IMG/VR virus record: IMGVR_UViG_3300046478_000024
Location: 1-41,575 of that record
DNA: 41,575 nucleotides
Reading direction: 5' to 3' (one strand)
DNA from: a virus
The translations under genes were made by a program, and so were the position numbers. Position 1 is the stretch's first letter. Each line of letters opens with the position of its first letter. This document shows, piece by piece, positions 8,790 through 37,945 of the stretch. The notes beneath the pieces are model-generated. The model was not told the DNA's origin. It was given only the letters and a program-made list of their open reading frames with translations, and searched no databases.

Positions 8790-10145
8790 CTAGACGCCAA
8801 GAACCTCGGAGACCTTGCGGACGGGCAGCCCGAGCGACACAATTTCTTCGACGAGTTCTTTCACGTATTTTTCGTTGACAGTGTTCGGCGGTTCGGCGGC
8901 GGCGGCCATCGCGTGGATGAGGAAGATCGCCCAGCCGCCGTATTCCTTGGCTTCCTTGACCGACCAGCGCATTGAGCCCACTTCGGCGTTGTTACCGACG
9001 AGCGCGGTCGTGCCCATCCCGACGATGCGGAGTCGCCGGGGGTCTCCAGGAGGAACCGTCTCCGCGCCGTTGGACGCGGTGCAGCGTGCGGAGCTGAACA
9101 GCTGCGGAATGAAGGCAAGGAACTCCCGGTTGAACTGGCCGGAGGGAATCGCCCAATGGTTGGCGCCCGTGAGGCCGAGTTCGGCGAGGAGTTCCTGCGC
9201 GGCCTGCAGATCGTTGAGCACCACTTCTTCGGAGAATTCGGTCATGCCCGCCGCGGTGTTGGCGTTGTGTTCGGCAAGATCGCAATGCACGCACACGTCC
9301 CAGCCGATGGATTGGAGGTGCTGGATCTGTTCGAGCGTCAGCTTTTCGGCTTGCCCGATGCGGCTCATCGTGAGGTACAGGCTGGCCTTCCAGCCATGTT
9401 CCTCGAACAGCGGCCAGATCTTTTCCCACTGCGACCCGTAGTTGTCGTCGTGGGTGAAGGACACGACGCCTTCGGGGTAGGTGTCCGCGACGATCTCCAC
9501 ACCGCCGAACAGCAGCTGCGTTTCGCCCGCTTTGTTGTCTTCGAGGGTGATCCTGAAGTCCTGGATTTTTTCCCAGCTGAGTTCGCTTCCGAGGCGCCCA
9601 AGGAGACCCATCGCATTGCACGTGAAGGCGAACCATTCACCGGACTTGACGTACTTATGGGTTTCTTCAGTGGTCTGCGCGGTCGTGGGGGCCTGCTTGA
9701 ACTGGCCTTTGAAGACGGTCGCCCCGGACCCCATGACGACGTCGAACGCGTTGAAGGTAGACGCGAATTCGGTCGGGATGTAGAACCAGAACCGCAGGTG
9801 CTTGCCCTTCAGGTTCAGTTCGGCGAGCCGGGTGAGTTCGACGCCGGCGCTCGCGCCCGCGCCCTTCGTGGCGAGGCGGATGCACTGCTTGCCGAGGCCG
9901 CCCATGCCCTCGCCGGTGTAGGCGAGGCTGCTCGTCGCCGCCTGGTATTCGAGGCTGAATTTCCATGCGTGCCCCGGTTCGAGAGTGCTGTTCGCGGGGT
10001 TTGCGAGCCGTGTCACCGTCTCAGGCAGAATCGGACGCCGCGCCATCGCAGGGATCGCAGGCTGCCACGCGGTCCCATTCCAGCGGAGCCCATTGCGGAT
10101 CGCTGCTGGGCCACTGCTGGTGAGGAGATACGTGCGTTCACCCAT
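8790..10145 (-). CDS. tail spike with polysaccharide-deacetylase (NodB-like) domain
   Basis: The start at 10145 has a GGAGG site and overlaps the upstream stop by 8 nt; the 451-residue product begins MGERTYLLTSSGPAAIRNGL. Residues about 55-220 form a beta-rich carbohydrate-binding-like module. From 223 a polysaccharide-deacetylase domain follows. VVSFTHDDNYG (THDD at 231-234) matches motif 1, where TFDDG is usual. VCVHCDLAEHN (His 287, His 293) stands for motif 2. WAIPSGQFNRE near 331 stands for motif 3, and FLIHAMAAAA for the late Leu-His motif. Such enzymes are metal-dependent and remove N- or O-acetyl groups from glycans. On a phage tail this fits degradation of a host surface polysaccharide. 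The His spacing in motif 2 is wider than the usual HxxxH, so activity should be treated with care. Confidence 0.85.
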   Translation of the reverse strand: MGERTYLLTSSGPAAIRNGLRWNGTAWQPAIPAMARRPILPETVTRLANPANSTLEPGHAWKFSLEYQAATSSLAYTGEGMGGLGKQCIRLATKGAGASAGVELTRLAELNLKGKHLRFWFYIPTEFASTFNAFDVVMGSGATVFKGQFKQAPTTAQTTEETHKYVKSGEWFAFTCNAMGLLGRLGSELSWEKIQDFRITLEDNKAGETQLLFGGVEIVADTYPEGVVSFTHDDNYGSQWEKIWPLFEEHGWKASLYLTMSRIGQAEKLTLEQIQHLQSIGWDVCVHCDLAEHNANTAAGMTEFSEEVVLNDLQAAQELLAELGLTGANHWAIPSGQFNREFLAFIPQLFSSARCTASNGAETVPPGDPRRLRIVGMGTTALVGNNAEVGSMRWSVKEAKEYGGWAIFLIHAMAAAAEPPNTVNEKYVKELVEEIVSLGLPVRKVSEVLGV

Positions 10146-12350: not shown

Positions 12351-13370
12351 CTACGCCACGACCTTCGAGAAGAAAATCCCGAGCGATTCGCTCGTCTTCT
12401 TCAAGTCATACGCCGTACGCATCGCATACCAGTTCGTCCACGCCGACTCCAGCCGACCCGAATACAACACGCCCGCTGTCGCACCGTCGATACCCGGCAC
12501 GAGGTTCGTCCACGCGAACGTGTACCCCGCAGACGGCGTATCAATCGACGGGCCAGACGGCGCATAACACAACAGGGCGCTCTTCGGGTCCGCAATGAAT
12601 TTCATGGTTTCCCCCGCACCCTCCTGCGCCGCGTTATACACCGCCCGTGCGACGAGGATCTTGTCGACCTCGAACGCGGCAGCCATCGCCCGCTTACCAA
12701 CGAGTGCGGGTTCCTGCTGGGAGATGTACTTGATGCGTTCCACCAGTTCGTGGTTGTTACGCATCCCCGTGTACGTCTTCGCTCCGAACACGAGAATGTT
12801 CGGGCGACGCCCCGTCTTTTCCTGCATTTCGTCCGCACGCTCACCGAAGAACAGGATCGGTTCCGTTTCCTTAGCGACCGCCACGTTCCCCGGCTGAGCG
12901 AACTGTGTGAATTTCTTGCCCGCTTCCGAAGCGGTACCCGACGTGCCTTCCCAGCTCGTTTCCCACTCGCCAGCCGCAAAGTATTCTTCCGCCCAGTTGC
13001 GGTCCAGCCGGATCAACGCACGTTCCGACAGGAATTCCGTCGCCCGTAGATCCGGGTACAACGGGTCATCCGCGTTCCGGGGGATACGGTCATCGAGACG
13101 GTGCTGGAGCGCTCGCTCTTCGCAAAGGAACGTCCCCGTTTCCGTGGTGTAGCTGTCGTACGCCGGCTCCTCCCCCATACCACGCACGGGGAAGTCATCG
13201 CGCATCCACGCTTCCCTCGGGAAAATGACGTAGTTATCCGACCGGTGCTCAGACGGCACAATCGGAAAAACCTGGGTCGCGATGAAATCCTCGCGCTCCT
13301 GGCGGTAGCGGATGGCGAAATTCGACATCCACCTATTGATGTGGACATTTGCGGGACCGATCTCTGGCAT
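12351..13370 (-). CDS. major capsid protein
   Basis: The 339-residue protein opens MPEIGPANVHINRWMSNFAI with RQEREDFIATQVFPIVP, typical of the N-arm and first strands of a capsid subunit family that needs no internal protease tail. It continues with NILVFGAKTYTGMRNNHELV, AAAFEVDKILVARAVYNAAQ and a C-terminal GVLYSGRLESAWTNWYAMRT. The last regions match capsid proteins in which a 'vgk.lv..a.yn.a..g' strand precedes the final beta hinge. It follows the decoration protein and precedes the connectors. No other gene in the window fits as major capsid. Confidence 0.85.
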   Translation of the reverse strand: MPEIGPANVHINRWMSNFAIRYRQEREDFIATQVFPIVPSEHRSDNYVIFPREAWMRDDFPVRGMGEEPAYDSYTTETGTFLCEERALQHRLDDRIPRNADDPLYPDLRATEFLSERALIRLDRNWAEEYFAAGEWETSWEGTSGTASEAGKKFTQFAQPGNVAVAKETEPILFFGERADEMQEKTGRRPNILVFGAKTYTGMRNNHELVERIKYISQQEPALVGKRAMAAAFEVDKILVARAVYNAAQEGAGETMKFIADPKSALLCYAPSGPSIDTPSAGYTFAWTNLVPGIDGATAGVLYSGRLESAWTNWYAMRTAYDLKKTSESLGIFFSKVVA

Positions 13371-14625: not shown

Positions 14626-15315
14626 CTAGACCTCCACTGGGTGACGGAAACCAAGCCCTTCGAGGCTCAATCCCGTCAGCTTGCCTTCATCGACTTCCTG
14701 CTTTACCAGCGGGTCATCGATCTGCCATGCCTGCACCCATGAGGACTTCGTGACTGGCTCACCGCCCAACACCATGTCCATCGGCGCTATGTAATTCTCG
14801 ATCAGGTCTGCACCGGCGTCCCGGCCACTGTGCTGCACGTCCGGGGAATGCTCTGCCTTCGAGAGCGAGTAGTCCCGCATGAAGCCATGGCATGCCTTCT
14901 CGATCTCTGCCGGGGCGAAGATGTCGCCTTGGCTATCTTCGAGCCCCGGCTCTAGGACGACACCATAAAACTTGCCCTCGACATCGCTCTTACGCAGCGG
15001 GCAGGTATAGGCGACCTCCGCCTTCTCCATCGGCTCCTCCTTGTCGTCCTCCAGCGGGTTCGGCGCACCCAGCTCCTTCGCACGACGAGCGATCAGGGCC
15101 TTCGCTGCGGCCGTGTCACCGTGCCCTGAGCGGGCCAGCACGGCCGCAGGATGCAGATCCGCAGCGCTCGCTATGGGGTAGCTGCCTCCCGGCAACGCAT
15201 GGCCCTGACGGGCAAGAGAGCGGCGCTCAGCGGCCGTGAAATCACGCTTGTAGATCGCCTCCTCCGACTTGAACAACTCGTCGGTGGCAGATTTGTTCAG
15301 CCAGGACACACTCAC
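14626..15315 (-). CDS. XkdF-like prohead protease
   Basis: A GTG start at 15315 overlaps the portal stop (GTGA). Residues 1-95 contain a helical module, RDFTAAERRSLARQGHALPG followed by GSYPIASAADLHPAA and IARRAKELGAPNPL, seen at the ends of many phage head proteins. Residues about 100-229 match the XkdF family: KFYGVVLEPGLEDSQGDIFA, EKACHGFMRDY, AEHSPDVQHS, SWVQAWQIDDPLVKQEVDEG, KLTGLSLEGLG. The family is a putative serine protease acting on the prohead. Ser in 'LTGLSLEG' and His in 'AEHSPD' are candidate catalytic residues by analogy. Confidence 0.78.
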   Translation of the reverse strand: MSVSWLNKSATDELFKSEEAIYKRDFTAAERRSLARQGHALPGGSYPIASAADLHPAAVLARSGHGDTAAAKALIARRAKELGAPNPLEDDKEEPMEKAEVAYTCPLRKSDVEGKFYGVVLEPGLEDSQGDIFAPAEIEKACHGFMRDYSLSKAEHSPDVQHSGRDAGADLIENYIAPMDMVLGGEPVTKSSWVQAWQIDDPLVKQEVDEGKLTGLSLEGLGFRHPVEV

Positions 15316-18300
15316 TCCTCCTCTGTCTGGACAACAGGCTCAAAGCCGACGCTGCACTGCGGGTGATCGGCCTTCGGGGCGTCCGCGACAGGCATGAGCT
15401 CGCCGTCACGCTCCGCACACCCCGAGTTCGAGTCACCGTCACCGTACATCCCATGACGCACCCGAATCGCGGTGACGTGCGGGCTCGCCGTATAGGCGTT
15501 CAGGCACGCGGCGCGCTGCATGTCGTTCGTCTGGTCCGCGCTGATAAGCCGCGACCGGTAGGGCGCACCGGCCCGTGTGAACCGTCCGGCAGGCACGGCG
15601 CGCCGGATGCGTGCAGCGACGAGCGCGGGTGTCTCCCGACGGTCGCGTCCTTCCTCGATCGAACGCACCAGGGATGCTCTGACCTGCGGCTCGATGTCAC
15701 GGGCACTCATGTGCATCGCTTCGGTCTTACGCAGGCTATCCCCGGTCGTCATGTCCAGGCCCATCTGGTCGGTCAGGGTGCGCTCGGTGTCGCGCTTCAC
15801 GCGCTCCCGGTGGTTCTCCAGCAACGGGGCGAGACGCTGGCGTGTCCAGTCCGCGACTTTCACGACACGCAGCGTCGCGGCGGCGAGAGAGCGGATCTCA
15901 CGCTTGCTGTTCGGCAGCGTCTCCGGTGCCGTAGCGAGATAGGCGCTCGATGCGCGCGCACCCAGCTCGTGCAGCGCGCCTGTGATCTCACGGTCGAACT
16001 GGCCCGCGAGCACCAGGGCACGATCCGCTAGCGCGCGGGCGACCTCGACGACCCCTTCGGCCTTCTGGAGCTTCGCTTTTTCGCCTTCGCCCGGCTTCGG
16101 CTTCGCAGACTCCGCAGCCTTAGCCTTCTGCGGAGGGAAAGTGAAGTTAGAGCCGAGCCCTGCTGCCTCGAACATCTGTTTGAGGAACGCCGGGTCTTTC
16201 GGCAATTCCAGCCCGGCACCAGCGAGACTCCCGAGGAACAACCCGACCTTTTCCAGGTCGATCCTGCCGGCCGTCGTGGCAACGATTTTCGGGGGGTCCG
16301 TCGTCTTCACCCCGTTCAGCTTCAACAGCCTCGGGATCGCATACCGGTTCATCGGCTTGAGGATCTGTTCGATCATGGCATCCACAGCCATCCCGAACAG
16401 CTCGCTCTTGACATCCACCATCGCGTAGGAGCCCAGGCCGTCCTGCCCCAGCAGCATGAAGTCAGCCGCAACGCTCGCGGCGATCCTCTGCTCGTAGCGA
16501 CGAATCACCTTGTCAAGGTCGAACTGGCGGGACCCCGCAGCAGACATCAGGCCGATATCCCACTCAGCGGACGGGTAGACGATGCCCTCGTCCTCGTCAC
16601 GGTGGATCGTGGTGACGAGTTCACGGACCGTGTTGTACAGGTCCGCGTTCTCCGCCGAATAGAGATCGACGTTCGGCGGCGGCTTCGCGTACGGGATACC
16701 CGCAAGGTCCCGTGCGGCGCCGGTCGCCTCGATGTCCTGCAAGCCACGCATACGAAAATAGCTCGTCCACGCGCGACGCAAAATACTGAAACCCTCTGGC
16801 GAATTACGGACCCTGCGGTTGCGGATCAGCACGCCCTTCGTGATCGGGATCGCGTGCTGCTCGCCATGCCAATCAAGCTGGATCAGCGCCCGCAGCGAGC
16901 TGTACCCGTCAAAGTCCCAACGCAAGGTCGTTTCCTGTGCACGCAACGGCAGCTTGCGCCACCCCACGAGACCGTCGTCGTAGACGCTCGACGCGGGGTG
17001 CTGAGGTTCTTCGGTCGAGGGGGTGTCCTCGGACATTTCGTCCTGCCCGGGCTGTTCGCCGTTGCGCTTCTTGAACACTTCCTCCATGAACGCGTACCCG
17101 TAGGGCAGGTGCGTGAGCGATTCGCAGACGAAGTCGTCCCAGCCGTGGCTCATATCGTGCATGCAGTTGTGACTCGCGACGCCGTTGGCAAGGTAAGAGT
17201 GAGTGCCCGCGACCTCGCAGTTATAGACGGCGAGATCCTCCGCCTTCGTCTTCTCGATCGCCTTGATGGGGTAGTGGATGTATCCGTTGTGGATAAACGC
17301 CTGATTGCGTCCCCGGCTCTCGAAACCCACTCCCAGCACCCTGCCGAGAGCCGCTCCAAAACCCCCCTGCACCCACAGGTCGAGACGGGGCATGTAGGTC
17401 TTCCCGTATGTCCCTGCAGGGCGCTTAGTGAGACGCGTTAGCGCTCCCACGATCCCAAGCCTCAAGAGCATCACGCGGACCTGCTCAATCAGAACCTCGG
17501 ACACGCTCGTGAAGCAGAACCCTTTAGGGCCAAGGGTACCGTCGCCTCGCCAGTAGCCCACTAGGAAGTTGCGGACCACATCCTCGCTGCCCCGAGTGAT
17601 CCATTCCGGGGCTTCCTTGCCGGGGGCTAGATGTCCGCAAGACGCGAAGAACCTCGCGGCGATCACGGAGTTGAAACGTACGATCCGTGCCCGCGAGTTA
17701 GGCGATGGTGACTCTTTCGCCTCCACGCCGAAGATACTCCTTACGAGGCCCTGCACATCTCTCACGTACGCCTGCTCATCGGGGCCGAATGTGATGAAGA
17801 TGCCGCGCTGATCGGTACAGCCGTCCGCCACGAAGTAGCCGCACAGGCGAGCTAGATCAGGGGACGACTGCACGGCATCCGGCCCCCTTGCGGGCATGCC
17901 CTGTGGAGACCGTACATAGGAGAAGACCTCCTGCCCATCCGGGAGCGCCTCTACAGCCGGGACTGGCTCTAGTAGGAAGTCGCCAACGGCAACGGACTCG
18001 GCGGAGGCCCACTCATAGCGAAGGCCCTCCAGCCGGCGATTGCCGCCCCCCCCACGCGACCCCTCACGGGTCCACCAGTCTGCGGGCCGGCGAGCGATGT
18101 AGAGCGGATGCTCGGCGGTCGCAGTGAGCCTACCGCCAGTACGTCGAAGCTCGTAGATATCGCCGGCATACTGGCGGGCAAGCACTTCCGTCACCCGATG
18201 TGCAGTCCCGTCGTGGCTGACGACTCGGTGGCCTACCCGTAGGGCCTCAATTGGTACCTGACTTCCGTCTGCCAACCGAACCCTGGTACCCGCTGGATGG

Positions 18301-18635
18301 CACTGCTCGACGTGCTTACGCCACCGTGGTTCTCCGCCCTCCACGCTGTACGTCACACGCTGCGCCAACATTTCGATCATGAACAGGAACCCGCCCGCGA
18401 CAGGATCGTTATCCATGAATTCGCGGTAGCGCCACGCGGCGTCGCGGCCTTGGAGTTCGGCAAGAAACTCATCGAAAATCCAGCCGGACCACTGTCGCAG
18501 GCCCGACGTGCCCAGCTCCGCGAACGGCGAGACCTTGCGGGAGCGCGAAACCCCATAGTCGCGGACCGCGATGGGTCGCACGATGCGGACAGCGGTACCG
18601 TCGCCCGTCTGGCTGCTTGCGCGTGGTGGCGGCAT
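15312..18635 (-). CDS. portal protein with intein and C-terminal MuF-type domain
   Basis: The 1107-residue precursor has the order: portal part 1 (residues 1-111), intein (112-490), portal part 2 (491 to about 850) and a MuF-like tail (about 880-1107). Portal text includes REFMDNDPVAGGFLFMIEML before the insertion. After it come PYGYAFMEEVFKKR, WDFDGYSSLRALIQLDWHGE, GVLIRNRRVRNSPEGFSILR and GLQDIEATGAARDLAGIPYA, typical of DUF935/Mu gp29-like portals. The C-terminus has ISADQTNDMQRAACLNAYTA, HGMYGDGDSNSGCAERDGEL and DHPQCSVGFEP, matching MuF minor head proteins with their Cys/His pattern. Fusion of portal and MuF in one chain is unusual but not unique. GAGG precedes the ATG. The spliced product would be 728 residues. 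Confidence 0.85.
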   Translation of the reverse strand: MPPPRASSQTGDGTAVRIVRPIAVRDYGVSRSRKVSPFAELGTSGLRQWSGWIFDEFLAELQGRDAAWRYREFMDNDPVAGGFLFMIEMLAQRVTYSVEGGEPRWRKHVEQCHPAGTRVRLADGSQVPIEALRVGHRVVSHDGTAHRVTEVLARQYAGDIYELRRTGGRLTATAEHPLYIARRPADWWTREGSRGGGGNRRLEGLRYEWASAESVAVGDFLLEPVPAVEALPDGQEVFSYVRSPQGMPARGPDAVQSSPDLARLCGYFVADGCTDQRGIFITFGPDEQAYVRDVQGLVRSIFGVEAKESPSPNSRARIVRFNSVIAARFFASCGHLAPGKEAPEWITRGSEDVVRNFLVGYWRGDGTLGPKGFCFTSVSEVLIEQVRVMLLRLGIVGALTRLTKRPAGTYGKTYMPRLDLWVQGGFGAALGRVLGVGFESRGRNQAFIHNGYIHYPIKAIEKTKAEDLAVYNCEVAGTHSYLANGVASHNCMHDMSHGWDDFVCESLTHLPYGYAFMEEVFKKRNGEQPGQDEMSEDTPSTEEPQHPASSVYDDGLVGWRKLPLRAQETTLRWDFDGYSSLRALIQLDWHGEQHAIPITKGVLIRNRRVRNSPEGFSILRRAWTSYFRMRGLQDIEATGAARDLAGIPYAKPPPNVDLYSAENADLYNTVRELVTTIHRDEDEGIVYPSAEWDIGLMSAAGSRQFDLDKVIRRYEQRIAASVAADFMLLGQDGLGSYAMVDVKSELFGMAVDAMIEQILKPMNRYAIPRLLKLNGVKTTDPPKIVATTAGRIDLEKVGLFLGSLAGAGLELPKDPAFLKQMFEAAGLGSNFTFPPQKAKAAESAKPKPGEGEKAKLQKAEGVVEVARALADRALVLAGQFDREITGALHELGARASSAYLATAPETLPNSKREIRSLAAATLRVVKVADWTRQRLAPLLENHRERVKRDTERTLTDQMGLDMTTGDSLRKTEAMHMSARDIEPQVRASLVRSIEEGRDRRETPALVAARIRRAVPAGRFTRAGAPYRSRLISADQTNDMQRAACLNAYTASPHVTAIRVRHGMYGDGDSNSGCAERDGELMPVADAPKADHPQCSVGFEPVVQTEEE
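17166..18302 (-). other. portal intein, class 1-like, with LAGLIDADG endonuclease
   Basis: The intein covers residues 112-490 of the portal precursor (379 residues). It begins at a Cys in block A (CHPAGTRVRLADGSQVPI). Block B is GGRLTATAEHPLYI with the expected T-x-x-H. The end is VAGTHSYLANGVASHN, and the +1 residue is Cys 491. Two LAGLIDADG-type helices, DLARLCGYFVADG near 260 and FLVGYWRGDG near 357, indicate a homing endonuclease. All residues needed for normal splicing are present. Confidence 0.9.
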
Positions 18636-18680: not shown

Positions 18681-21356
18681 TTAGTTGGGTCGGCGCCCCC
18701 ACGAGCCACCGCCGGCCCTCACACGCAGCGGAGCCTGCCATGACCCACCACGACGCCTGAGTACCTGCGGAGCAGCGACTTTAGGCGCGACGCGCGTCAT
18801 GAAAAACGCTTGCACAACACTGTCGCCCTGGTCGGTGGAGCGTTTGAGGCGTTTCTTGATGCTCGACTTCTTCTCCACCGCGATCCGCCCGTTCGTGCCT
18901 TCCTCCCAACGTGGCGCGAGCAGGTCGGCAGTCAGCTGCTCGTAAGCCTTCCCGCCAGGGATAGCGAGATCGAACCCGGAGCCCGGCTCAAGCATTTCAC
19001 GAAGATTCCACCATGCCGCCGAACGCGTCCGGTCGAACCCCATCTGTCCCCCACGACTCCGTAGGTCCGTTTTGTTGGAGGCCACGAAGTCCACGACGCC
19101 GATGCCGTTCGCACGAAGCTCGTTCGCCATAGATTCACCCGCGTTCAACGCGTCGATCACGACCCTCGCGCGACGTTCGGGGAACAACGCGAGTCCTTCC
19201 AGCTCTTTCCTCGTGACCGTCGTGTCCAGCCGGTGAGGGCGCAACAGCACAGCCGAGATCACGGGACCGTGGCGCAGCGCGAAACACGAGTGGTCGCCGC
19301 CTTTGCCCGCGATGTCCGCACCGATGATTTCCAGTGGCCCCAACGACTCGTGGACAGGGACAACAAGGCCCTGCTGCGGGTCGAGTTCGAGTTCGTCCCA
19401 TCGGGCGTTCGCTTCGAGCAGATGCTCATGGCGGACAACGGAGTCTTCGCCCTGGCGAGCGAACTCGCCCCGGACATGGTTAGCGAAAATCGCGGAGTCT
19501 TCGCCGTACAGGTCGATGTATTCCTGCACACCGTCCTCGCTGACCTGGCCGGCTGCGAGAGCTTCCTCCAACGTGACATGAACAGCCACATAGCGGCCCC
19601 CGCCGTGTCTGCCTTCGCAGAGATCGTAGAAACGGCCCTCCGGCACGAACGGCGTCGACGTGACGAGCACATAGGCGTTCGCTCGCGTGTCGCGCCCCGC
19701 ACCCAGCAACGCTCCCTGGAGGGCGTCGTAAATGTTGTCCGGGATACTCCAAGCCTCGTCGAAGATGAACAGCAGCTCGTCCGCGTGCGCACCTTCGATC
19801 TTCGCGCTATCCGCGGTCGCGGCGAGAACAACCGACCCATGTTTGAGACGGAGCTGCTTGAGCATCATCTCCTGGTTCGGGATAAACGGCTCACGGCCGA
19901 TCTCACCCCAGTCCAGACGCGTCACCCAACGGGTCCGCAGCTGCCCCCACAGGAACTCGATGAGCTGCCTGTAGACCTTCGCGGTGACGACAACCATCCA
20001 GTCCTCGCCCGCCGCCTCACGAGTCAAAGCAAACCATATTATTGTCCAAGCATTTGACGCCGTGTTATGGGTGGGAATGAAGTCCTCGCCAGCGAGGAAC
20101 AAGTGCGAGGGCGAGTCCACCGCGATGCACCGCGTGAGCTGGCGCCCGAGCGGCGTCATGCCAACGATGGTTCGCCGCGTATGCCGAGAGGCCTGTCCCG
20201 CACGGGGCTGCCAGTCATAACGCTCAAGGCGGTAGGGACAGAAGTCGAAGCGCGCCATGATGCGCCAGCGGCGTCCGACCTCGCGCCCTTCGATCTTGGC
20301 CGCGCTCTCTTTCATGCGAACCACAAGGCCGAGGGAGCGCAGCAACTCGGCGATCCCCTTGGCGAGAAACTCGTTGGTCTGGGTGATCTCGTCGTAGCCG
20401 TGGCCGCGATAGCCATCGGAGTCCCAGAGTCCCTGCACAAGTGCTCGGCGCTGCTCGATTGAGGCGCGAAGATAGATATCGGGGATGTGCTTGTCGTTGA
20501 GCACCCCGAGTTCGCGCAGGCGAGGCCTGAGCCCGTCCTTCCGTCGCGTCGCGGCAGGATCACGAAATCCCATCTCCCAGACGCCACTGGTGCGACGCGG
20601 ATCGCGCCGTAGCGCGGAGGTCTCATAGCCTGCCGCAACGAGTTCCCGCTCCACGTGGGACTTATCCCGCTCGCCAACGGTCAAGCGGGTACTCCCCGAG
20701 TCCCCATCTCCGAGCCAGTAGCCAAAGATGTAGGGGTCGATCGGCAACTCCGCCTCGGGCAAGTCGAGTGGCTTGGTAGTGGGCACGCTCCACCGCCAAT
20801 CTCCACGCCCCGCCGTATGAAGCGTATCCGCAATCCGCTGCGTAGTGACAGTCTTCGTCGCGGACCACCATTCGCGCCAGTCCGTGACGCGAATCGCCTT
20901 GCCGTGGCGGCCAGGCTCGTGAGGACGCTGATAGCAGTCCACCGCGTTCCACAGATGGCCGGCACCCGCCACGATGGCTGCCCCATCCGCGAAGACAACG
21001 TTGTAGGCGTCGCGCCACTGTGGCTCCTCGGCGTAGAGCACCCGACAGGGCTTTCCCTGCTCGTCAAGGATGATGTCGCCCTCCGTGAGCGCCCCCATCG
21101 TGGTCCAGCCGGTAGGCGTCGGGATCGGCGTCTCGACCGCCAAGTCCTTGCCTGCGCCGCGGGGAGCGCGTACCGCGAGCCTGCCGTGCTGCACCAGCGT
21201 CTCCATGTTGCGGAGCTGGTACGGGGCGGGTTCTTCGCCGGGCGCCCACCGGATGCAGTGCTTGACGAAACCCGCGGGGTCGTCGTGAAAGCGGAGCGCC
21301 CCGGTGATCTCGGGCGCGAGGCGTCCTCCCATGATGCTCAAAGCGCTCCCGGTCAC
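18681..21356 (-). CDS. terminase large subunit interrupted by an intein in the P-loop
   Basis: A GTG start at 21356 has an AGGAGG site. The 891-residue precursor carries the packaging ATPase and nuclease. The Walker A motif, RAPRGAGK then TASNAW, is split after Lys 70 by an intein (residues 71-431). After it come SAKIEGAHADELLFIFDEAW (Walker B), VLVTSTPFVPEGRFYDL (coupling motif region), and the nuclease domain with LEIIGADIAGKGGDHSCFAL (first Asp), RARVVIDALNAGESM (second Asp) and a late SSIKKRLKRSTDQGDSVVQA (third acidic residue). The spliced protein would be 530 residues, a normal size. The insertion in the P-loop means no ATPase activity before splicing. Confidence 0.93.
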   Translation of the reverse strand: MTGSALSIMGGRLAPEITGALRFHDDPAGFVKHCIRWAPGEEPAPYQLRNMETLVQHGRLAVRAPRGAGKDLAVETPIPTPTGWTTMGALTEGDIILDEQGKPCRVLYAEEPQWRDAYNVVFADGAAIVAGAGHLWNAVDCYQRPHEPGRHGKAIRVTDWREWWSATKTVTTQRIADTLHTAGRGDWRWSVPTTKPLDLPEAELPIDPYIFGYWLGDGDSGSTRLTVGERDKSHVERELVAAGYETSALRRDPRRTSGVWEMGFRDPAATRRKDGLRPRLRELGVLNDKHIPDIYLRASIEQRRALVQGLWDSDGYRGHGYDEITQTNEFLAKGIAELLRSLGLVVRMKESAAKIEGREVGRRWRIMARFDFCPYRLERYDWQPRAGQASRHTRRTIVGMTPLGRQLTRCIAVDSPSHLFLAGEDFIPTHNTASNAWTIIWFALTREAAGEDWMVVVTAKVYRQLIEFLWGQLRTRWVTRLDWGEIGREPFIPNQEMMLKQLRLKHGSVVLAATADSAKIEGAHADELLFIFDEAWSIPDNIYDALQGALLGAGRDTRANAYVLVTSTPFVPEGRFYDLCEGRHGGGRYVAVHVTLEEALAAGQVSEDGVQEYIDLYGEDSAIFANHVRGEFARQGEDSVVRHEHLLEANARWDELELDPQQGLVVPVHESLGPLEIIGADIAGKGGDHSCFALRHGPVISAVLLRPHRLDTTVTRKELEGLALFPERRARVVIDALNAGESMANELRANGIGVVDFVASNKTDLRSRGGQMGFDRTRSAAWWNLREMLEPGSGFDLAIPGGKAYEQLTADLLAPRWEEGTNGRIAVEKKSSIKKRLKRSTDQGDSVVQAFFMTRVAPKVAAPQVLRRRGGSWQAPLRVRAGGGSWGRRPN
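20064..21146 (-). other. terminase intein, apparent class 3, with LAGLIDADG endonuclease
   Basis: The 361-residue intein starts with Asp (DLAVETPIPTPTGWTTMGAL), not Cys or Ser, so it lacks the usual N-terminal nucleophile. Instead it shows the three scattered residues of class 3 inteins: Trp in block B (GAGHLWNAVD), Cys in block F (LTRCIAVDSPSHLFL) and Thr in block G (GEDFIPTHN). The +1 extein residue is Thr. Endonuclease motifs are YIFGYWLGDGDSG near 209 and ALVQGLWDSDGYRG near 305. Class 3 inteins are linked to phages in earlier work. The residue assignment is from motif reading and should be verified by alignment. Confidence 0.85.
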
Positions 21357-23754: not shown

Positions 23755-24018
23755 CTACACCCGCAGTAGCCGGCGAGCCTCAGCCATCGGCCTCTCGGCC
23801 TCAGCCTCCGAGGATGCGCAAACGCTAACCGTCTCTCCGGTTCGCAACGCCTCAGCTATCGCAGCGACCATCACCAGCCGACAGCCGAACGGGCGGGCAC
23901 CGCCCATCACCATCCGGGCGGGCTTGAGGGACTTGCCTTCGTAGACCTGCTTCTGCCACGGCAAAAGCTCAGGCAGCGGGGCGTGGAGATTAGCGCGCAG
24001 GAACTCAGCCGGTTCCAT
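23755..24018 (-). CDS. mini P-loop-like protein with degenerate Walker A
   Basis: The 87 residues read like the start of a terminase or helicase: LPELLPWQKQVYEGKSLKPA, then MVMGGARPFGCRLVMVAAIA, then GETVSVCASSEAEAERPMAE. The order 'l.pwQ...' (Q-motif-like), a Gly-rich loop and a following strand matches an ATPase N-terminus. The loop has Cys-Arg where Gly-Lys-Ser/Thr would be, and nothing resembling Walker B follows. The ATG shares its A with the previous stop (TGATG). A small protein derived from an ATPase fold, with lost catalysis, is the cautious reading. Confidence 0.6.
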   Translation of the reverse strand: MEPAEFLRANLHAPLPELLPWQKQVYEGKSLKPARMVMGGARPFGCRLVMVAAIAEALRTGETVSVCASSEAEAERPMAEARRLLRV

Positions 24019-24530
24019 CAGCTCCGTCCCTCCAGTAGCCGTTCTAGCCGGTCATGCCAAGCACGATGACGCTCAACGAGATCAACGACGGGCGAGATCC
24101 CCGGTTCGGTATCGACCGGGTTAGGGAGGATCGCACCACAGAGGCCGCAGCCGAACATCACGCGTCCATGCTCAAAGACATTCCCTAGCACCATCTCTCG
24201 TATCACACGCGGTTCCAAGGCAGCGACGAACCCGGAGAACATCCCGCACTGCTTGCAGCCCGCGACGTTATGCCGGACGCAGGTGCGCATCTTCGCGGAC
24301 ACTTCGCGTTCGTTGTCGCGCACGAAGTCACTCGCCTTCGAGCGGTAGTTGCCGCCAGGCGACGTGTGTTCAACCCACATCTCGCTCTCCCACTCCGTCC
24401 CCTCGGCCGGCTCGTGGAACGTCCGCAGAACGAGGGTCCGACAACGGCCCCCACGAAGATTGCGGACCTTGTCGAGCCAGACCTCACCCGCCTTCGGCGC
24501 CTGCTCCGGCAGATCCAGACGGTCGCTCAT
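24018..24530 (-). CDS. Cys/His-containing hypothetical phage protein
   Basis: The start at 24530 gives 170 residues beginning MSDRLDLPEQAPKAGEVWLD; a longer frame to 24638 is less likely because it overlaps the previous small gene. The first half is a beta-rich SH3-like part (GEVWLDKVRNLRGGRCRTLV). The second contains two Cys pairs, CVRHNVAGCKQC and FGCGLCGAI, that could bind zinc. The function is unknown. It is coupled to the P-loop-like gene. Confidence 0.65.
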   Translation of the reverse strand: MSDRLDLPEQAPKAGEVWLDKVRNLRGGRCRTLVLRTFHEPAEGTEWESEMWVEHTSPGGNYRSKASDFVRDNEREVSAKMRTCVRHNVAGCKQCGMFSGFVAALEPRVIREMVLGNVFEHGRVMFGCGLCGAILPNPVDTEPGISPVVDLVERHRAWHDRLERLLEGRS

Positions 24531-24540
24531 CGGCCGGCCT

Positions 24541-24762
24541 TCATGGCCCTCCGCAGGCGCTCGTTGCGCTTGTCGATGAGACGCCGCCGCTCGCCTCAAG
24601 CGCTTGCTCCAAAGCTTGGCTGAGCCTGCCGGGGCCATCCGTCAGCTCCCTTTCGACGGCCCCCTCGTCGGTTGCGTCGCCACTATCCCAGTCCTCCCAG
24701 TCTGTCTCGCCGCCGAAGGTGATGTTGCTTGACGCTGACCAGCAGATGCGGTACTCGATCAT
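24541..24762 (-). CDS. small acidic phage protein
   Basis: The 73 residues begin MIEYRICWSASSNITFGGET, with Trp/Asp-rich text after it and a helical stretch (GRLSQALEQALEASGG). Its ATG overlaps the stop of a 21-codon gene as ATGA. Openings of the type 'YRI.WsassN..f.g' are frequent in small phage genes. No function can be assigned. Confidence 0.6.
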   Translation of the reverse strand: MIEYRICWSASSNITFGGETDWEDWDSGDATDEGAVERELTDGPGRLSQALEQALEASGGVSSTSATSACGGP

Positions 24763-24824
24763 GCCCTCGCCACCCGGTTACGTGCATCGGCGAACTGCCG
24801 CGCTGTGAGCTCGACCTCGCTCAT
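24759..24824 (-). CDS. 21-residue micro-protein
   Basis: A 22-codon frame (first residues MSEVELTARQFADARNRVA) has ATGA overlaps with both neighbours: its ATG overlaps the stop of the gene at 24821 and its stop overlaps the ATG at 24762. The double coupling argues that it is translated, if only to pass ribosomes along. No family is known. Confidence 0.5.
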   Translation of the reverse strand: MSEVELTARQFADARNRVARA

Positions 24825-25000
24825 GTCTTGACCTTCCCGAAAGTCCCGTCCGGGTGCGCGTTAGGCCCACGCTTGATTGGCGCTTCCTGCAAACGCTTGT
24901 TCCGAGCATCCACGATCCGGCGCCGCTCAAGCTGCTCCGGCGTCGGCGCTTTCTGCGCGAGCGCTTTCGCGCGATCCGCGATGTCGGTGGGTTTGGTCAT
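24821..25000 (-). CDS. small basic phage protein
   Basis: The start at 25000 overlaps the upstream stop (ATGA). The 59 residues are helical and Lys/Arg-rich (TKPTDIADRAKALAQKAPTP, EQLERRRIVDARNKRLQEAP) with a GRPN-like loose end. Perhaps nucleic-acid binding; not recognised. Confidence 0.6.
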   Translation of the reverse strand: MTKPTDIADRAKALAQKAPTPEQLERRRIVDARNKRLQEAPIKRGPNAHPDGTFGKVKT

Positions 25001-25188
25001 CGACCGACCACCGGTAGCGTCGAGAGGTCGATCAGGCCACGACTCCAAAGCGTCGGAACCGGGCACGGCCCCGTGTAGCCACGCGCCCGGTACACGAGCC
25101 AATAGACGCTGCGGATCTCACGGGACGCCGCCTGCATCCCGGCGCGTTCCGCACTGGCCCGTGCCTGCATCTTGCGCTTGCGGGTCAC
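24997..25188 (-). CDS. small basic phage protein
   Basis: A GTG start at 25188 makes a GTGA overlap with the membrane protein gene. The 63 residues are basic at the N-terminus (TRKRKMQARASAERAGMQAA). They continue SREIRSVYWLVYRARGYTGP and LWSRGLIDLSTLP. An alternative start at 25410 would run through the membrane gene in another frame and is rejected. Function unknown. Confidence 0.6.
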   Translation of the reverse strand: MTRKRKMQARASAERAGMQAASREIRSVYWLVYRARGYTGPCPVPTLWSRGLIDLSTLPVVGR

Positions 25189-25337
25189 GAGGACTCCCCG
25201 ACCGCGACCACAAGGCCCACGAGCACGAACGCGACGCCGGCCACGCCAAAGATGACGACACGGAAGAGCGTCTCCGCGAGCGCGGCCCCCACGAGGCAGA
25301 TGCCCCCGGCCGCCAAAAGGGGCGTAGCCATCCTCAT
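25185..25337 (-). CDS. small membrane protein with two hydrophobic segments
   Basis: The 50-residue product is almost entirely hydrophobic: TPLLAAGGICLVGAALAET followed by LFRVVIFGVAGVAFVLVGLV. This predicts two membrane passes with a short polar turn. Its ATG overlaps the upstream stop and its stop overlaps the next GTG. A holin or membrane-accessory role is possible, but no endolysin is nearby. Confidence 0.6.
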   Translation of the reverse strand: MRMATPLLAAGGICLVGAALAETLFRVVIFGVAGVAFVLVGLVVAVGESS

Positions 25338-25648
25338 CGCTTGCCCCGTTTCTGAACGATGGGGCGCGGCTGACCGACCATCCCACCAGCAGGCCGACGA
25401 GAGCCGTCACCCGTCAAGCCAAGCGAACGCGCCCGCTCGCCACCAGGCTCAAGCCCCTCCGCAGGCGCCATCGCGACCACCTCCCCGCCCCTCGGAGGCA
25501 GCTGCACAACCCCCGACCGCTGCGCGACGATCGCATCCCTACACCGCTCCTTGATCCAAGTCGAACGCGGCACCTCACCACGCGCACCTTCGATCGCCTC
25601 CAGTTCACGGGGGGATATACGAATCAGAATCTGCTCACTCGCAGCCAC
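25334..25648 (-). CDS. ribbon-helix-helix (Arc/MetJ-type) DNA-binding protein
   Basis: A GTG at 25648 is chosen; a longer frame to 25852 passes through repeats of simple sequence and the parS-like site. The product is 104 residues. Residues 3-45 fit a ribbon-helix-helix fold: the strand EQILIRISPRELEAIEGARG, then helices PRSTWIKERCRDAIVAQ. The tail is Pro/Gly/Arg-rich and probably disordered. A 15-bp palindrome 8 nt before the start is a likely operator, suggesting autoregulation of the whole leftward cluster of small genes. Confidence 0.7.
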   Translation of the reverse strand: MAASEQILIRISPRELEAIEGARGEVPRSTWIKERCRDAIVAQRSGVVQLPPRGGEVVAMAPAEGLEPGGERARSLGLTGDGSRRPAGGMVGQPRPIVQKRGKR

Positions 25649-25656
25649 ACCCAGAA

Positions 25657-25671
25657 GTATATCCGATATAC
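25657..25671. promoter_or_regulatory. palindromic operator candidate before the RHH gene
   Basis: GTATATCCGATATAC is a perfect 7-bp inverted repeat around one central base. It lies 8 nt upstream of the GTG at 25648 and includes a TATACT hexamer on the minus strand. A half-copy, GATATAC, recurs at 25614-25620 inside the gene. Ribbon-helix-helix proteins usually bind such short symmetric sites at their own promoters. Confidence 0.6.
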
Positions 25672-25821
25672 AAGCGAGAAGGGGCACAAAGCCCAAAACC
25701 ACCCTCGACACCCTAAACCCGCAGCACCCATGGGACAACGCGAAATGTAGCACCACACGCCACAACGCCGCAGTAGACCACCCAAAACACCACCCAAAAA
25801 ACAAGCCAAACACCAAAACCC

Positions 25822-25835
25822 GTTTCACGTGAAAC
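25822..25835. promoter_or_regulatory. parS-like centromere site
   Basis: GTTTCACGTGAAAC is a perfect 14-bp palindrome, identical to the core parS sequence bound by ParB in many bacteria, including streptomycetes and relatives. It stands in the longest non-coding stretch of the left half (about 25673-25973), which is rich in short CCACCCAAAA-type runs and holds no recognisable gene. No parA or parB gene was seen in the window. Confidence 0.75.
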
Positions 25836-25973
25836 ACAGTAGAGCCCTCCAACGAACCCGTATTCTTCGCGGAACCCGCCCGGCGCCCCCGGCTGTGGTG
25901 TTTGGTCGATAATTCTGGCGGGTAGGCGCCGCGCTTCGCGCTCTAGCGCCGTGAGAGTGCGCTGCGGGGGCCG

Positions 25974-26627
25974 CTAGGGCTTGAGACGGGCTTGGCCTTC
26001 TATGTCGTTAGCCCCGAGCTTGTTTAGTCGCTGCCCGAGGTTCTGGAGGCCAGCAGCAGCCTGTGCCGCGGTCACATACCCCTGTTGTTGCATCCAGGCG
26101 AACACAGCCCGGTTCTGGGTCATCAACAGGTCCGCTTCGTCCTCGCGGACCTTCGCTAGCCGGTCAGCGACTTTCGCGTCAAGAGCGTACTTAGCGACCC
26201 TGGTCCACACCTGCAGGGCCGCTTCCCTCGCCTGTACGTACGGGTGTAGTACAAGCTGCCCATGACGATCCCGCCCCATCCACGTAGACCGGCCCTTCAT
26301 CAAGTCCTGGCACACCAAACGCCAATGCTGATACGTGTACGCCGCCAGATCCAACGTCTCCTGCAAATGCTCCAACGGCGACCGGTCCGTAACCCCAAGA
26401 GCCTGCATCTGCCGCTCCGCGAACTGCAACGCCGTCTCCTCTTCAACACGCTCCCCAGCACGCCTACGCACCCCCTCATTCACACCATGCTTAGGACAAA
26501 TCGTCGCACCCCTAATCGGCCTACGCGTACACCGCGCCCCCGCCCTCACATGCCTCTCAGGAAACACCCACACACACTGACGCGGAAACACCGTCTGCGG
26601 CGGCAACACACCCGACTTCATAGGCAC
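25974..26627 (-). CDS. terminase small subunit-like protein with N-terminal Cys/His motif
   Basis: The 217-residue product has an N-terminal motif RCTRRPIRGATICPKHGVNE (Cys and His that could hold zinc), then an Arg-rich helix (VRRRAGERVEEETALQFAER). It continues with a long helical body, LGVTDRSPLEHLQETLDLAA, YQHWRLVCQDL, REAALQVWTRVAKYALDAKV, AKVREDEADLLMTQNRAVFA. This layout is common in proteins placed at the head of terminase operons of high-GC phages and often called small terminase. ATGs at 26627 or 26621 are both possible starts. It is 4.6 kb upstream of the large subunit, so the call rests mainly on its own pattern. Confidence 0.6.
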   Translation of the reverse strand: MPMKSGVLPPQTVFPRQCVWVFPERHVRAGARCTRRPIRGATICPKHGVNEGVRRRAGERVEEETALQFAERQMQALGVTDRSPLEHLQETLDLAAYTYQHWRLVCQDLMKGRSTWMGRDRHGQLVLHPYVQAREAALQVWTRVAKYALDAKVADRLAKVREDEADLLMTQNRAVFAWMQQQGYVTAAQAAAGLQNLGQRLNKLGANDIEGQARLKP

Positions 26628-27033
26628 AGCCTACCCAAAACACCACCCAAGGCCACACACAACCCGCGGAGAAACGGGTTCTGTGGATGCGGGTGGAGTC
26701 ATTGGTGGGGTCGGGTGGGTGTGGCCTGGCGGGCCGGGCGGTATGGAGGCGTGTTGGTGGGTGGCCGGCGAGTATGAAGCCTGTGTCGCTGTCGATGCGT
26801 TCGAGTAGGGCTGTGGCGGCGTCGTCGAGGGTGGTGCCGCATGCCTCGAAGTGGAGGCCGGCTTGCTCGTAGTCGATGAACCACACGTAGTCTGGGCGGT
26901 AGGCGTGGATGCGGATGGTTGGTCCGTCTCTAGATTCCGCCCGGCGTAGGAGGCGTGCGTATGGTCTAGCTTCGCGGTCCTTTCGCTGTCGCTTGTGTGC
27001 GATGTCTCGGCTGTTCGGGCGGGCTGTTCTCAT
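26557..27033 (-). CDS. hypothetical protein, C-terminal extent uncertain
   Basis: Residues 35-90 look like a genuine domain: TIRIHAYRPDYVWFIDYEQA, GLHFEACGTTLDDAATALLE, RIDSDTGFILAG. This is an alpha-beta pattern seen in small prokaryotic proteins of the HicB-like kind, but no partner is present. The last 60 residues are simple Arg/Pro and Cys/Val text that overlaps the next gene by 71 nt and may not be real. No ribosome site is visible, so a start or stop error is possible. Confidence 0.5.
   Translation of the reverse strand: MRTARPNSRDIAHKRQRKDREARPYARLLRRAESRDGPTIRIHAYRPDYVWFIDYEQAGLHFEACGTTLDDAATALLERIDSDTGFILAGHPPTRLHTARPARPHPPDPTNDSTRIHRTRFSAGCVWPWVVFWVGCAYEVGCVAAADGVSASVCVGVS
26661..26680. 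other. short hairpin upstream of the small-terminase-like gene
   Basis: AACCCG and CGGGTT form a 6-bp stem around an 8-nt loop, about 35 nt before the ATG at 26627. It lies inside the end of the preceding reading frame. There is no T-run. It could be an attenuator; the evidence is weak. Confidence 0.3.
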
Positions 27034-27145
27034 GCGGTGCAGGATACGGGGTGGGCGGTCGCTTCCAGTTTGCCGGCTCTGTCTGCCTCTGCGGGCTGGA
27101 CCGTGGTAGCTTCCACGTAAAGGCGCCAGCCCTGACGACCCGACT

Positions 27146-27172
27146 GGAGTGCTCGCTTGTCCCGAGCACTCC
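27146..27172. terminator. perfect 10-bp stem hairpin in control region
   Basis: GGAGTGCTCG at 27146-27155 and CGAGCACTCC at 27163-27172 pair perfectly around a 7-nt loop. It lies between the minus-strand gene starting at 27033 and the plus-strand gene at 27244. It could be a terminator acting in both directions or a repressor site. No T-run follows. Confidence 0.45.
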
Positions 27173-27243
27173 TAGCTCTTGGACATAGGCCCGGAGCCTT
27201 GGGAGCGTGGCGGGGGGATGTTCGGGGGGTGTATGATGGGGGT

Positions 27244-27468
27244 GTGGCCGCTTTCGACGCATTCGCTTCCCGTGGGCGTGGGGTCCGTGTTGATGGGCAG
27301 GAAAGGACTATCCTCCGCAACCTGGAGATGGTGGTCGACGCGACTACCCAGCAGATGGACACCGTGGATGGGGCACTCCGGCGACTCGTGAGGGAGGGGC
27401 TGGTGACGGTTAGGGGTCAGAGGCCGCGGGTTTACGAGATCACTCGCAAGGGGCGACAGGCGGCGTAG
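27244..27468 (+). CDS. winged-helix transcriptional regulator, possibly leaderless
   Basis: A GTG at 27244 gives 74 residues. They fit a compact winged helix: DGQERTILRNLEMVVDATTQ, VDGALRRLVREGLVTVRGQR, and the wing PRVYEITRKGRQA. A TATGAT hexamer at 27232-27237 would place a transcript start close to the GTG itself, so translation may be leaderless. It is the first plus-strand gene after the structural block, and with the winged-helix gene at 27848 it may form a control switch. The 3' end overlaps the convergent gene at 27440 by 29 nt. Confidence 0.6.
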   Translation: MAAFDAFASRGRGVRVDGQERTILRNLEMVVDATTQQMDTVDGALRRLVREGLVTVRGQRPRVYEITRKGRQAA

Positions 27469-27628
27469 ACCCTTCGAGTTCGGCTATGCGTAGGAGCTCG
27501 CGTGCTGTGTGCGAGACACCGTTCCCGCCTGTGCAGGGCTGGTATCTGGGTGCCCGGCAGATAGGGCAGTGGGCGTAGAGGGCGTTGGCCTCTACTGGCA
27601 TGGTTGGGTGCTGCGTTGGGTTGTTCAT
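27440..27628 (-). CDS. small zinc-ribbon-like phage protein
   Basis: The 62 residues contain AHCPICRAPRYQPCTGGNGV followed by SHTARELLRI. The C-x2-C-x5-8-C...H spacing is typical of small zinc-binding proteins of high-GC phages with a CPxCxAxxxxPC core. There is no ribosome site: a hairpin touches the ATG. The role is unknown, perhaps DNA or RNA binding. Confidence 0.6.
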   Translation of the reverse strand: MNNPTQHPTMPVEANALYAHCPICRAPRYQPCTGGNGVSHTARELLRIAELEGSTPPVAPCE

Positions 27629-27646
27629 GCCTGCCTATCGGCAGGC
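27629..27646. other. hairpin directly 5' of the zinc-ribbon gene start
   Basis: GCCTGCC at 27629-27635 pairs with GGCAGGC at 27640-27646 around TATC. The 7-bp stem ends one base before the ATG at 27628, in the position where a ribosome site should be. It may control translation of the gene, or be a terminator for transcripts arriving from the right. Confidence 0.4.
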
Positions 27647-27847
27647 GCAGCCAAGAGCTTGAGGGCAGAACGACAACGACCCGCACAGGGCGGGCCGCCG
27701 TTTGCTACCGTCACGGGTGATCGAAGTCCGTGGCATGAGGGTACCAACCTCCGCTGACACTCCAAGCTCGCGGAGCCACCCAACGCCTCGTTCGCCCGTC
27801 AGAGGGGCCACGCGTCGGGCTACCCGGCAGCGTTCGCGCAGCGTCTC
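27647..27847. other. non-coding interval
   Basis: No credible gene was found on either strand in this 200-bp stretch. No tRNA-like cloverleaf, long repeat or strong promoter was seen. It separates two minus-strand small genes. Confidence 0.4.
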
Positions 27848-28114
27848 TTAAGGCTTCTCTCTCTGCGCTGCTGGCGTCTTCCATGTCGCTAGCCGCCCCT
27901 TCTCCGTCAGCCACCACGCCAACGGACGGCCACGCCTGTCCAGCTGACGCTCGCACCTCAGCAGCCCCTCGCGCTCCAGGCGCCGCAGCAGCTTCGAGAG
28001 CTGCCCCGCATCCTTGACACCAGCAGCAGGAGCGATCAGCACGTTCGACGCGCCGGGGTGCTTCTCGACGGCCTCAAGGACAGCGCGGGTACGGACGGTG
28101 CGTCTCACGGCCAT
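27848..28114 (-). CDS. winged-helix DNA-binding protein
   Basis: The start at 28114 gives 88 residues. RTRAVLEAVEKHPGASNVLI, AAGVKDAGQLSKLLRRLERE and GLLRCERQLDRRGRPLAWWL form three helices and a wing, as in MarR/ArsR-type regulators. It overlaps the end of the upstream gene by 10 nt. It is a candidate repressor of the divergent promoters at 28341-28384. Confidence 0.65.
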   Translation of the reverse strand: MAVRRTVRTRAVLEAVEKHPGASNVLIAPAAGVKDAGQLSKLLRRLEREGLLRCERQLDRRGRPLAWWLTEKGRLATWKTPAAQREKP

Positions 28115-37547: not shown

Positions 37548-37945
37548 AGCTTCGGCCCGTACGTCCGCTCAAGATATGCCTCCATCTTCGGAGTCCTCGC
37601 AAGCCGCTCCGCGCGACACACCACAGCCCGCTTGAGCCGCTTGTGCGCGGTCGTGTGGTTCGCGTGACACCGCCTGCAAAGCCAGATGATGTTGTCCGCC
37701 TCGTCCACCAGCTCGGAGTAGTGCTGCTCGTCAAAGATGTGGTGGGGGTCCATCGCTCGACCCGAGCAGCCGGGCTTCTCGCACGTGCCTTGGCTGCGCG
37801 TGAACGCGGCCTCCCTCGCGGCCTGGTATGCGGCCGTGCTGCGCGTGCTCGGCCTGCGGCGCCTCCCCTTCAACGGTTTGCGAGAACGGCGCAGCCAATC
37901 AGCCACCTTCGCGGGGTCCGCACGGAGAGGCTTCGAGCGCTTCAC
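37544..37945 (-). CDS. HNH endonuclease
   Basis: The 133 residues have a basic N-terminus and an HNH domain: Cys 55 and Cys 60 in TCEKPGCSG, the DPHHI motif at 66-70, Asn 85 in ADNIIWLC, and CRRCHANHTTAHK with Cys 90, Cys 93 and His 94. The domain uses a metal at the His/Asn centre, and zinc is held by the Cys pairs. It is in the early operon next to RecT/exonuclease genes. It may act in recombination or as a free homing-type nuclease. Confidence 0.85.
   Translation of the reverse strand: MKRSKPLRADPAKVADWLRRSRKPLKGRRRRPSTRSTAAYQAAREAAFTRSQGTCEKPGCSGRAMDPHHIFDEQHYSELVDEADNIIWLCRRCHANHTTAHKRLKRAVVCRAERLARTPKMEAYLERTYGPKL

Follow-up and report, generated by a model that had tools for sequence, protein, structure and literature searches.

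The DNA analysed here (the window) is a whole linear IMG/VR record of 41,575 bp and 64% GC, which carries phage genes for TerL, portal, scaffold, capsid, exonuclease and RecT. In a motif scan of the whole contig, the sequence GTTTCACGTGAAAC at 25822-25835 matches the chromosome-type parS at 14 of 14 positions, that is with zero mismatches, while the runner-up, at 37657, has 3 mismatches. The features on which the argument draws are listed below, with the strand where the feature has one.

12351-13370, minus strand: major capsid protein
15312-18635, minus strand: portal protein with a second intein
18681-21356, minus strand: TerL with an intein at Walker A GAGK/T
25334-25648, minus strand: 104-aa small protein, ribbon-helix-helix-like (RHH) by eye only, its start 173 bp from parS
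25649-25973: intergenic region with parS, 325 bp, the largest gap in 347-26621
25657-25671: inverted repeat GTATATCCGATATAC, 15 bp with one central base, adjoining the start of the small gene
25822-25835: parS, perfect 14-bp palindrome GTTTCACGTGAAAC, flanks C/A
25876-25917, minus strand: block common to relatives, CAGAATTATCGA ... GCCGGGCGG, from the alignment with relatives
25974-26621, minus strand: 215-aa protein, phrog_3678-like, candidate small terminase, its stop codon 138 bp from parS

The structural-gene region 347-26621, whose longest non-coding gap holds parS, is 94% coding and 6% non-coding. An ORF with a TTG start (25334-25852) formally covers parS; over its extension, 25649-25852, GC does not vary by codon position as it does in the genes of this DNA, so that a coding reading of the stretch is rejected and parS is treated as intergenic. 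Along the minus strand the order is the 215-aa gene, the shared block, parS, a G/T-rich stretch, the inverted repeat GTATATCCGATATAC and the small gene, the last being the first member of a collinear run of same-strand genes that leads to terL, 4.5 kb downstream of parS. The 215-aa protein matches phrog_3678 at E=0.008, and its homolog in the relative L125 does so at E=7e-16; among the named fold matches that rank highest for it, many are to P27-type TerS, all weak and none at E<=0.001. Its identity as a TerS is thus suggestive. For the 104-aa protein no family match was found and the structure model, with two helices, is weak, so that an RHH identity is not provable; the GTATATCCGATATAC repeat is a better candidate for the operator of this gene than parS. 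The shared block is possibly a cos/pac site or another packaging or transcription element, and a search of 25500-26100 for a sigma-70-like promoter was negative. A 23-nt C/A-rich repeat, AGACCACCCAAAACACCACCCAA, occurs twice within the parS gap, the copies overlapping (25775-25797 and 25787-25809), and twice more at 26628-26650 and 26640-26662, directly before the 215-aa gene; it is a possible phage regulatory element.

An earlier note on this DNA had described a perfect parS palindrome, and the exact match at 25822-25835 bears this out, being also the sole perfect palindrome of at least 14 bp in the contig. The chance expectation for GTTTCACGTGAAAC is 5e-5 to 1.1e-4 per 41,575 bp at 64% GC (zero- to second-order Markov models), and 7e-7 for the 325-bp gap alone. 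On the plus strand the flanking bases are C and A, which extends the match to 15 of the 16 positions of the 16-mer TGTTTCACGTGAAACA. Since chance 14-mers across millions of contigs are not negligible, the case is built on comparison among phages and not on a p-value alone. Judging by the sequence, the site is quite probably one that ParB binds, and it is probably, if not certainly, functional.

The same note had the site standing without parAB, which holds within the contig: ParA AAA_31 (PF13614) was not found in the 41.6 kb, nor was ParB_N (PF02195) found in this linear contig, whose record may be incomplete. The record being a linear contig, parAB may lie outside its ends.

By the usual view, parS serves as a centromere of chromosomes and plasmids. 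With the chromosomal parS of ParB/Spo0J (Corynebacterium glutamicum, PMC7083940; motif per PMC10197239) the site shares an identical 14-bp core in a single intergenic palindrome, yet it lies on a virus contig, in one copy, with no adjoining parAB or replication origin identified. A centromere-like site is also found in phage parABS cassettes (RedRock, PMC7157519; cyanophage Mic1, PMC7156551; P1; N15); these, however, bring parA and parB genes of their own and have their own site types, which in RedRock is an 8-bp motif in direct repeats (PMC7157519), whereas the site here is of host type and neither an own parB nor an own parA was found within the contig. SGI1 is a mobile element that carries the parS of a different replicon but no ParAB, and as such a precedent for parasitic parS (PMC10954446); the contig likewise has a foreign-type parS and no ParAB of its own. 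Unlike the contig, SGI1 is an integrative element, uses the ParABS of an IncC plasmid and has had its binding demonstrated, while the contig is a phage, the system it would use is presumably chromosomal and the binding is predicted.

In IMG/VR the 16-mer was found at no fewer than 120 loci, against 10 for a composition-matched control palindrome across the whole collection. Among 120 loci of the 14-mer, the expected flanking base is present on both sides in 69, on one side in 43 and on neither in 8; as chance flanks would mostly be of the last kind, at most about 14 of the 120 are to be ascribed to chance. Among contigs that exceed 60% GC and match at one flank, like the present one, about 22% of sites would be due to chance. 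parS lies outside ORFs at 40% of sites, compared with 13% of matched positions. Of 40 parS records 36 have no ParB_N, and the same holds for 41 of 50 in an overlapping set of records at least 30 kb long. The sampled parS contigs carry portal, terminase, capsid or replication genes, so host contamination cannot account for all of them. Over 21 long parS contigs, parS does not in general lie close to terL (KS p=0.46); the placement beside terL described below is therefore specific to a clade, and a universal packaging role is not claimed. In the open-access literature, outside which preprints and most subscription journals lie, nothing was found on ParB-less phages with an orphan parS.

Several observations made along the way concern individual records. 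Three phage-classed contigs (L029, L074 and L102) hold 5, 5 and 3 exact parS sites, ParB_N not being found in their records. Within each of two groups, L006/L008/L041/L189 and L064/L069/L089/L225, a homologous gene near parS is shared, and these groups are possible further clades with a fixed parS.

In a TerL family (Terminase_6C) with members down to 29% identity, parS commonly lies 18-140 bp upstream of terL. The first set of this family was drawn from parS loci compared with each other; it was thus ascertained on parS, and for this reason the survey was redone from TerL alone, on the best 80 TerL relatives, 71 of them with enough upstream DNA. Exact GTTYCACGTGRAAC occurs within 500 bp upstream of terL in 10 of the 71; three others have a palindrome with two mismatches, and all the rest differ at three positions or more. 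For six matched control palindromes the count upstream of terL was 0/71. In the ten exact cases the pairwise identity of parS is 99% (0.99), against 0.29 and 0.28 for the 60-bp flanks, which is close to chance. By TerL identity, parS is present in 7 of 17 relatives at 78% or more and in 2 of 48 below 70%. ParB_N was found in none of the 27 records tested, which include the contig and most parS records of the clade. Such conservation amid diverging flanks clearly points to selection of the orphan parS in the Terminase_6C clade.

Other sites of related type were seen in this survey. L250 has a second parS type, GTTCCACGTGGAAC, next to the first at terL, and L265 has the variant GTTCCACGTGAAAC beside terL; known ParB variants are used too. 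In L301, L307 and L311 a palindrome of another kind that shares the core, CTTTTCACGTGAAAAG or a near form of it, lies about 160-199 bp upstream of terL.

Among relatives of the contig itself, L123, of which L122 is a near-twin, and L125 preserve the order of the genes and, within the gap, the shared block, with homologs of the 215-aa protein at the equivalent position (L123 1054-1683, L125 691-1389) and of the 104-aa protein at 1892-2209 and 1557-1850, respectively. parS within 2 mismatches is absent throughout both records. These are the nearest relatives to cover the locus, yet TerL is about 57% identical (60% in the best segment) and the adjacent upstream protein merely 40-41%. As orphan parS in phages is patchy but real, its absence in relatives so distant says little, and since sharing of parS is rare at about 60% TerL identity in the well-sampled clade, the absence is to be expected even of a real site. 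Annotated phages gave no DNA match to 24000-28000. The 215-aa upstream gene alone yielded no relatives, and an alignment used in its place yielded only the three records already known.

As to the host, a portal scan of genomes gave no match, and a TerL scan gave only distant MAG matches in three phyla (Calditrichota, Acidimicrobiaceae, Chloroflexi). The exact 14-mer is present in 39 of 60 genomes of the presumed phylum Actinomycetota, to which the Acidimicrobiaceae MAG belongs, and a reversed control 14-mer in 0 of the 60. Where these genomes have several parS, the sites are clustered; over 45 sites in the sample, the flanks are T/A in 22 and C/A, the type of the contig, in 15. The suggestion made earlier that the phage recruits host ParB gains indirect support from the exact parS, its common actinobacterial flanks, its intergenic position, the lack of parAB and strong signs that parS is under selection in other ParB-less phages. 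Plasmid-like partition did not fare so well, with ParA, ParB and tyrosine integrase all missing from the contig, and it is the weakest of the three uses that had been proposed.

A working explanation, put forward tentatively and with slightly less than even confidence, is that a genuine chromosome-type parS would load host ParB on the phage DNA where the run of packaging genes begins. ParB is known to nucleate at parS, to form a CTP clamp and to slide (PMC7333895, PMC8367383), and near parS it can repress promoters in P. aeruginosa, although silencing by chromosomal ParB is usually weak or nil (PMC5521831). I infer ParB binding at the contig site and all later steps, as follows. A host ParB dimer would bind the palindrome on the phage DNA, close as a CTP-dependent clamp and slide over the neighbouring promoter and the packaging genes. 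While phage copies are few, the unit from the small regulator to terL would be held compacted or partly silenced; as the phage DNA multiplies, limited ParB would be diluted over many copies, so that the packaging unit would be released late in infection, in the manner of a copy-number timer. ParB would be lost from the host chromosome as a side effect. Local control is the best fit because parS lies directly before terL or before the run leading to it; given binding, the chance of such a control or timer role falls just short of one in two. The repression at parS3/parS4 of P. aeruginosa (PMC5521831) would underlie local control of the packaging unit, albeit the promoters there were chromosomal or on test plasmids and the effects often weak, while the contig is a phage. 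Against the mechanism count the single site in the contig, the lack of parS in L123 and L125, the 4.5 kb to terL, the clade-specific nature of the placement at terL, the usually weak or absent silencing by chromosomal ParB and the negative promoter search in 25500-26100.

The site may instead be a chance 14-bp match that fell in an intergenic region and was noticed since the motif is famous. Its absence from both syntenic relatives and its single copy are in keeping with this, and the 10 IMG/VR matches of the control 16-mer imply roughly a hundred chance 14-mers there, if not more; yet about 1e-4 such sites are expected per contig and 7e-7 in the gap, flank statistics put chance at about 22% for one-sided sites in high-GC contigs, and the site falls within the largest intergenic gap, all of which makes coincidence unlikely. 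parS lies upstream of a small regulator-like gene, and it is common for a regulator to bind a palindrome within its own promoter; the site might accordingly be the operator of a phage regulator, for instance the RHH-like neighbour, or be read by another host reader of CACGTG, its likeness to parS being incidental. In some TerL relatives a different palindrome, CTTTTCACGTGAAAAG or one close to it, stands at about -160 to -199, so that other readers of the core may exist. Such a role is nonetheless distinctly unlikely, for the small-protein homologs in L123 and L125 manage without the palindrome, the start of the small gene has an inverted repeat of its own, and the match extends beyond CACGTG to all 14 parS positions.

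Plasmid-like partition, in which an extrachromosomal phage rides on host ParAB, would account for an orphan parS; SGI1, with its parS mimics, is stabilised via the ParABS of its helper plasmid (PMC10954446), and the failure to find a tyrosine integrase (PF00589) in the 41.6-kb contig agrees with an extrachromosomal state. I consider it very unlikely, given that no temperate-lifestyle gene was seen among the proteins scanned (with profiles that did not include repA or serine integrase), that known extrachromosomal phages carry their own parABS (RedRock, PMC7157519), and that parS in the Terminase_6C clade is at terL and not at a replication gene. Still less likely is a decoy, whereby replicated phage DNA would pull ParB off the host parS and disturb chromosome segregation: the number of sites would grow with phage copies, and L029, L074 and L102 are phage contigs with 3 to 5 parS, but the present contig has a single site, and a decoy would work from any position, whereas parS in one clade is fixed immediately ahead of terL. 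The lowest probability goes to a packaging aid, ParB or SMC at parS ordering or marking DNA beside cos/pac. Both the conserved block beside parS near the terminase genes and the position upstream of terL in the Terminase_6C clade speak for it; parS phages, however, show no general proximity to terL, and cos/pac is putative here.

Turning from the timer to the wider pattern, the chances seem evenly balanced that many ParB-less phages carry a selected chromosome-type parS that recruits host ParB, with one TerL clade having it just before terL and the contig as a further, high-GC case, after a candidate terS. If so, host ParB would serve phages generally as a host factor, whether in packaging their DNA, in timing their genes or in positioning the DNA. 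Along the same line, if ParB-less phages select host-type parS, then ParB, together with the SMC that it loads, would be an exploited host factor, and the 14-bp motif would help to predict the host ParB type and the infection strategy. This wider orphan-parS pattern is a more valuable result than the single site in the contig.

Some further features of the contig lie outside the parS locus. The TerL intein, absent from the relatives L123-L125, has Asp as its first residue, contains HLW and RC motifs as well as a LAGLIDADG-like domain, and ends in HN/T; I take it to resemble class 3 inteins. The portal intein, absent from L123, L124, L125 and L140, is class 1-like (CHPAGTRV...SHN/C) with LAGLIDADG_3. 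An IS110-type transposase domain is encoded on the opposite strand (1903-2730, plus), near the contig end and beside epimerase and glycosyltransferase genes. A protein of the structural region (8790-10145, minus) has a polysaccharide deacetylase domain, which perhaps acts on host surface polymers.
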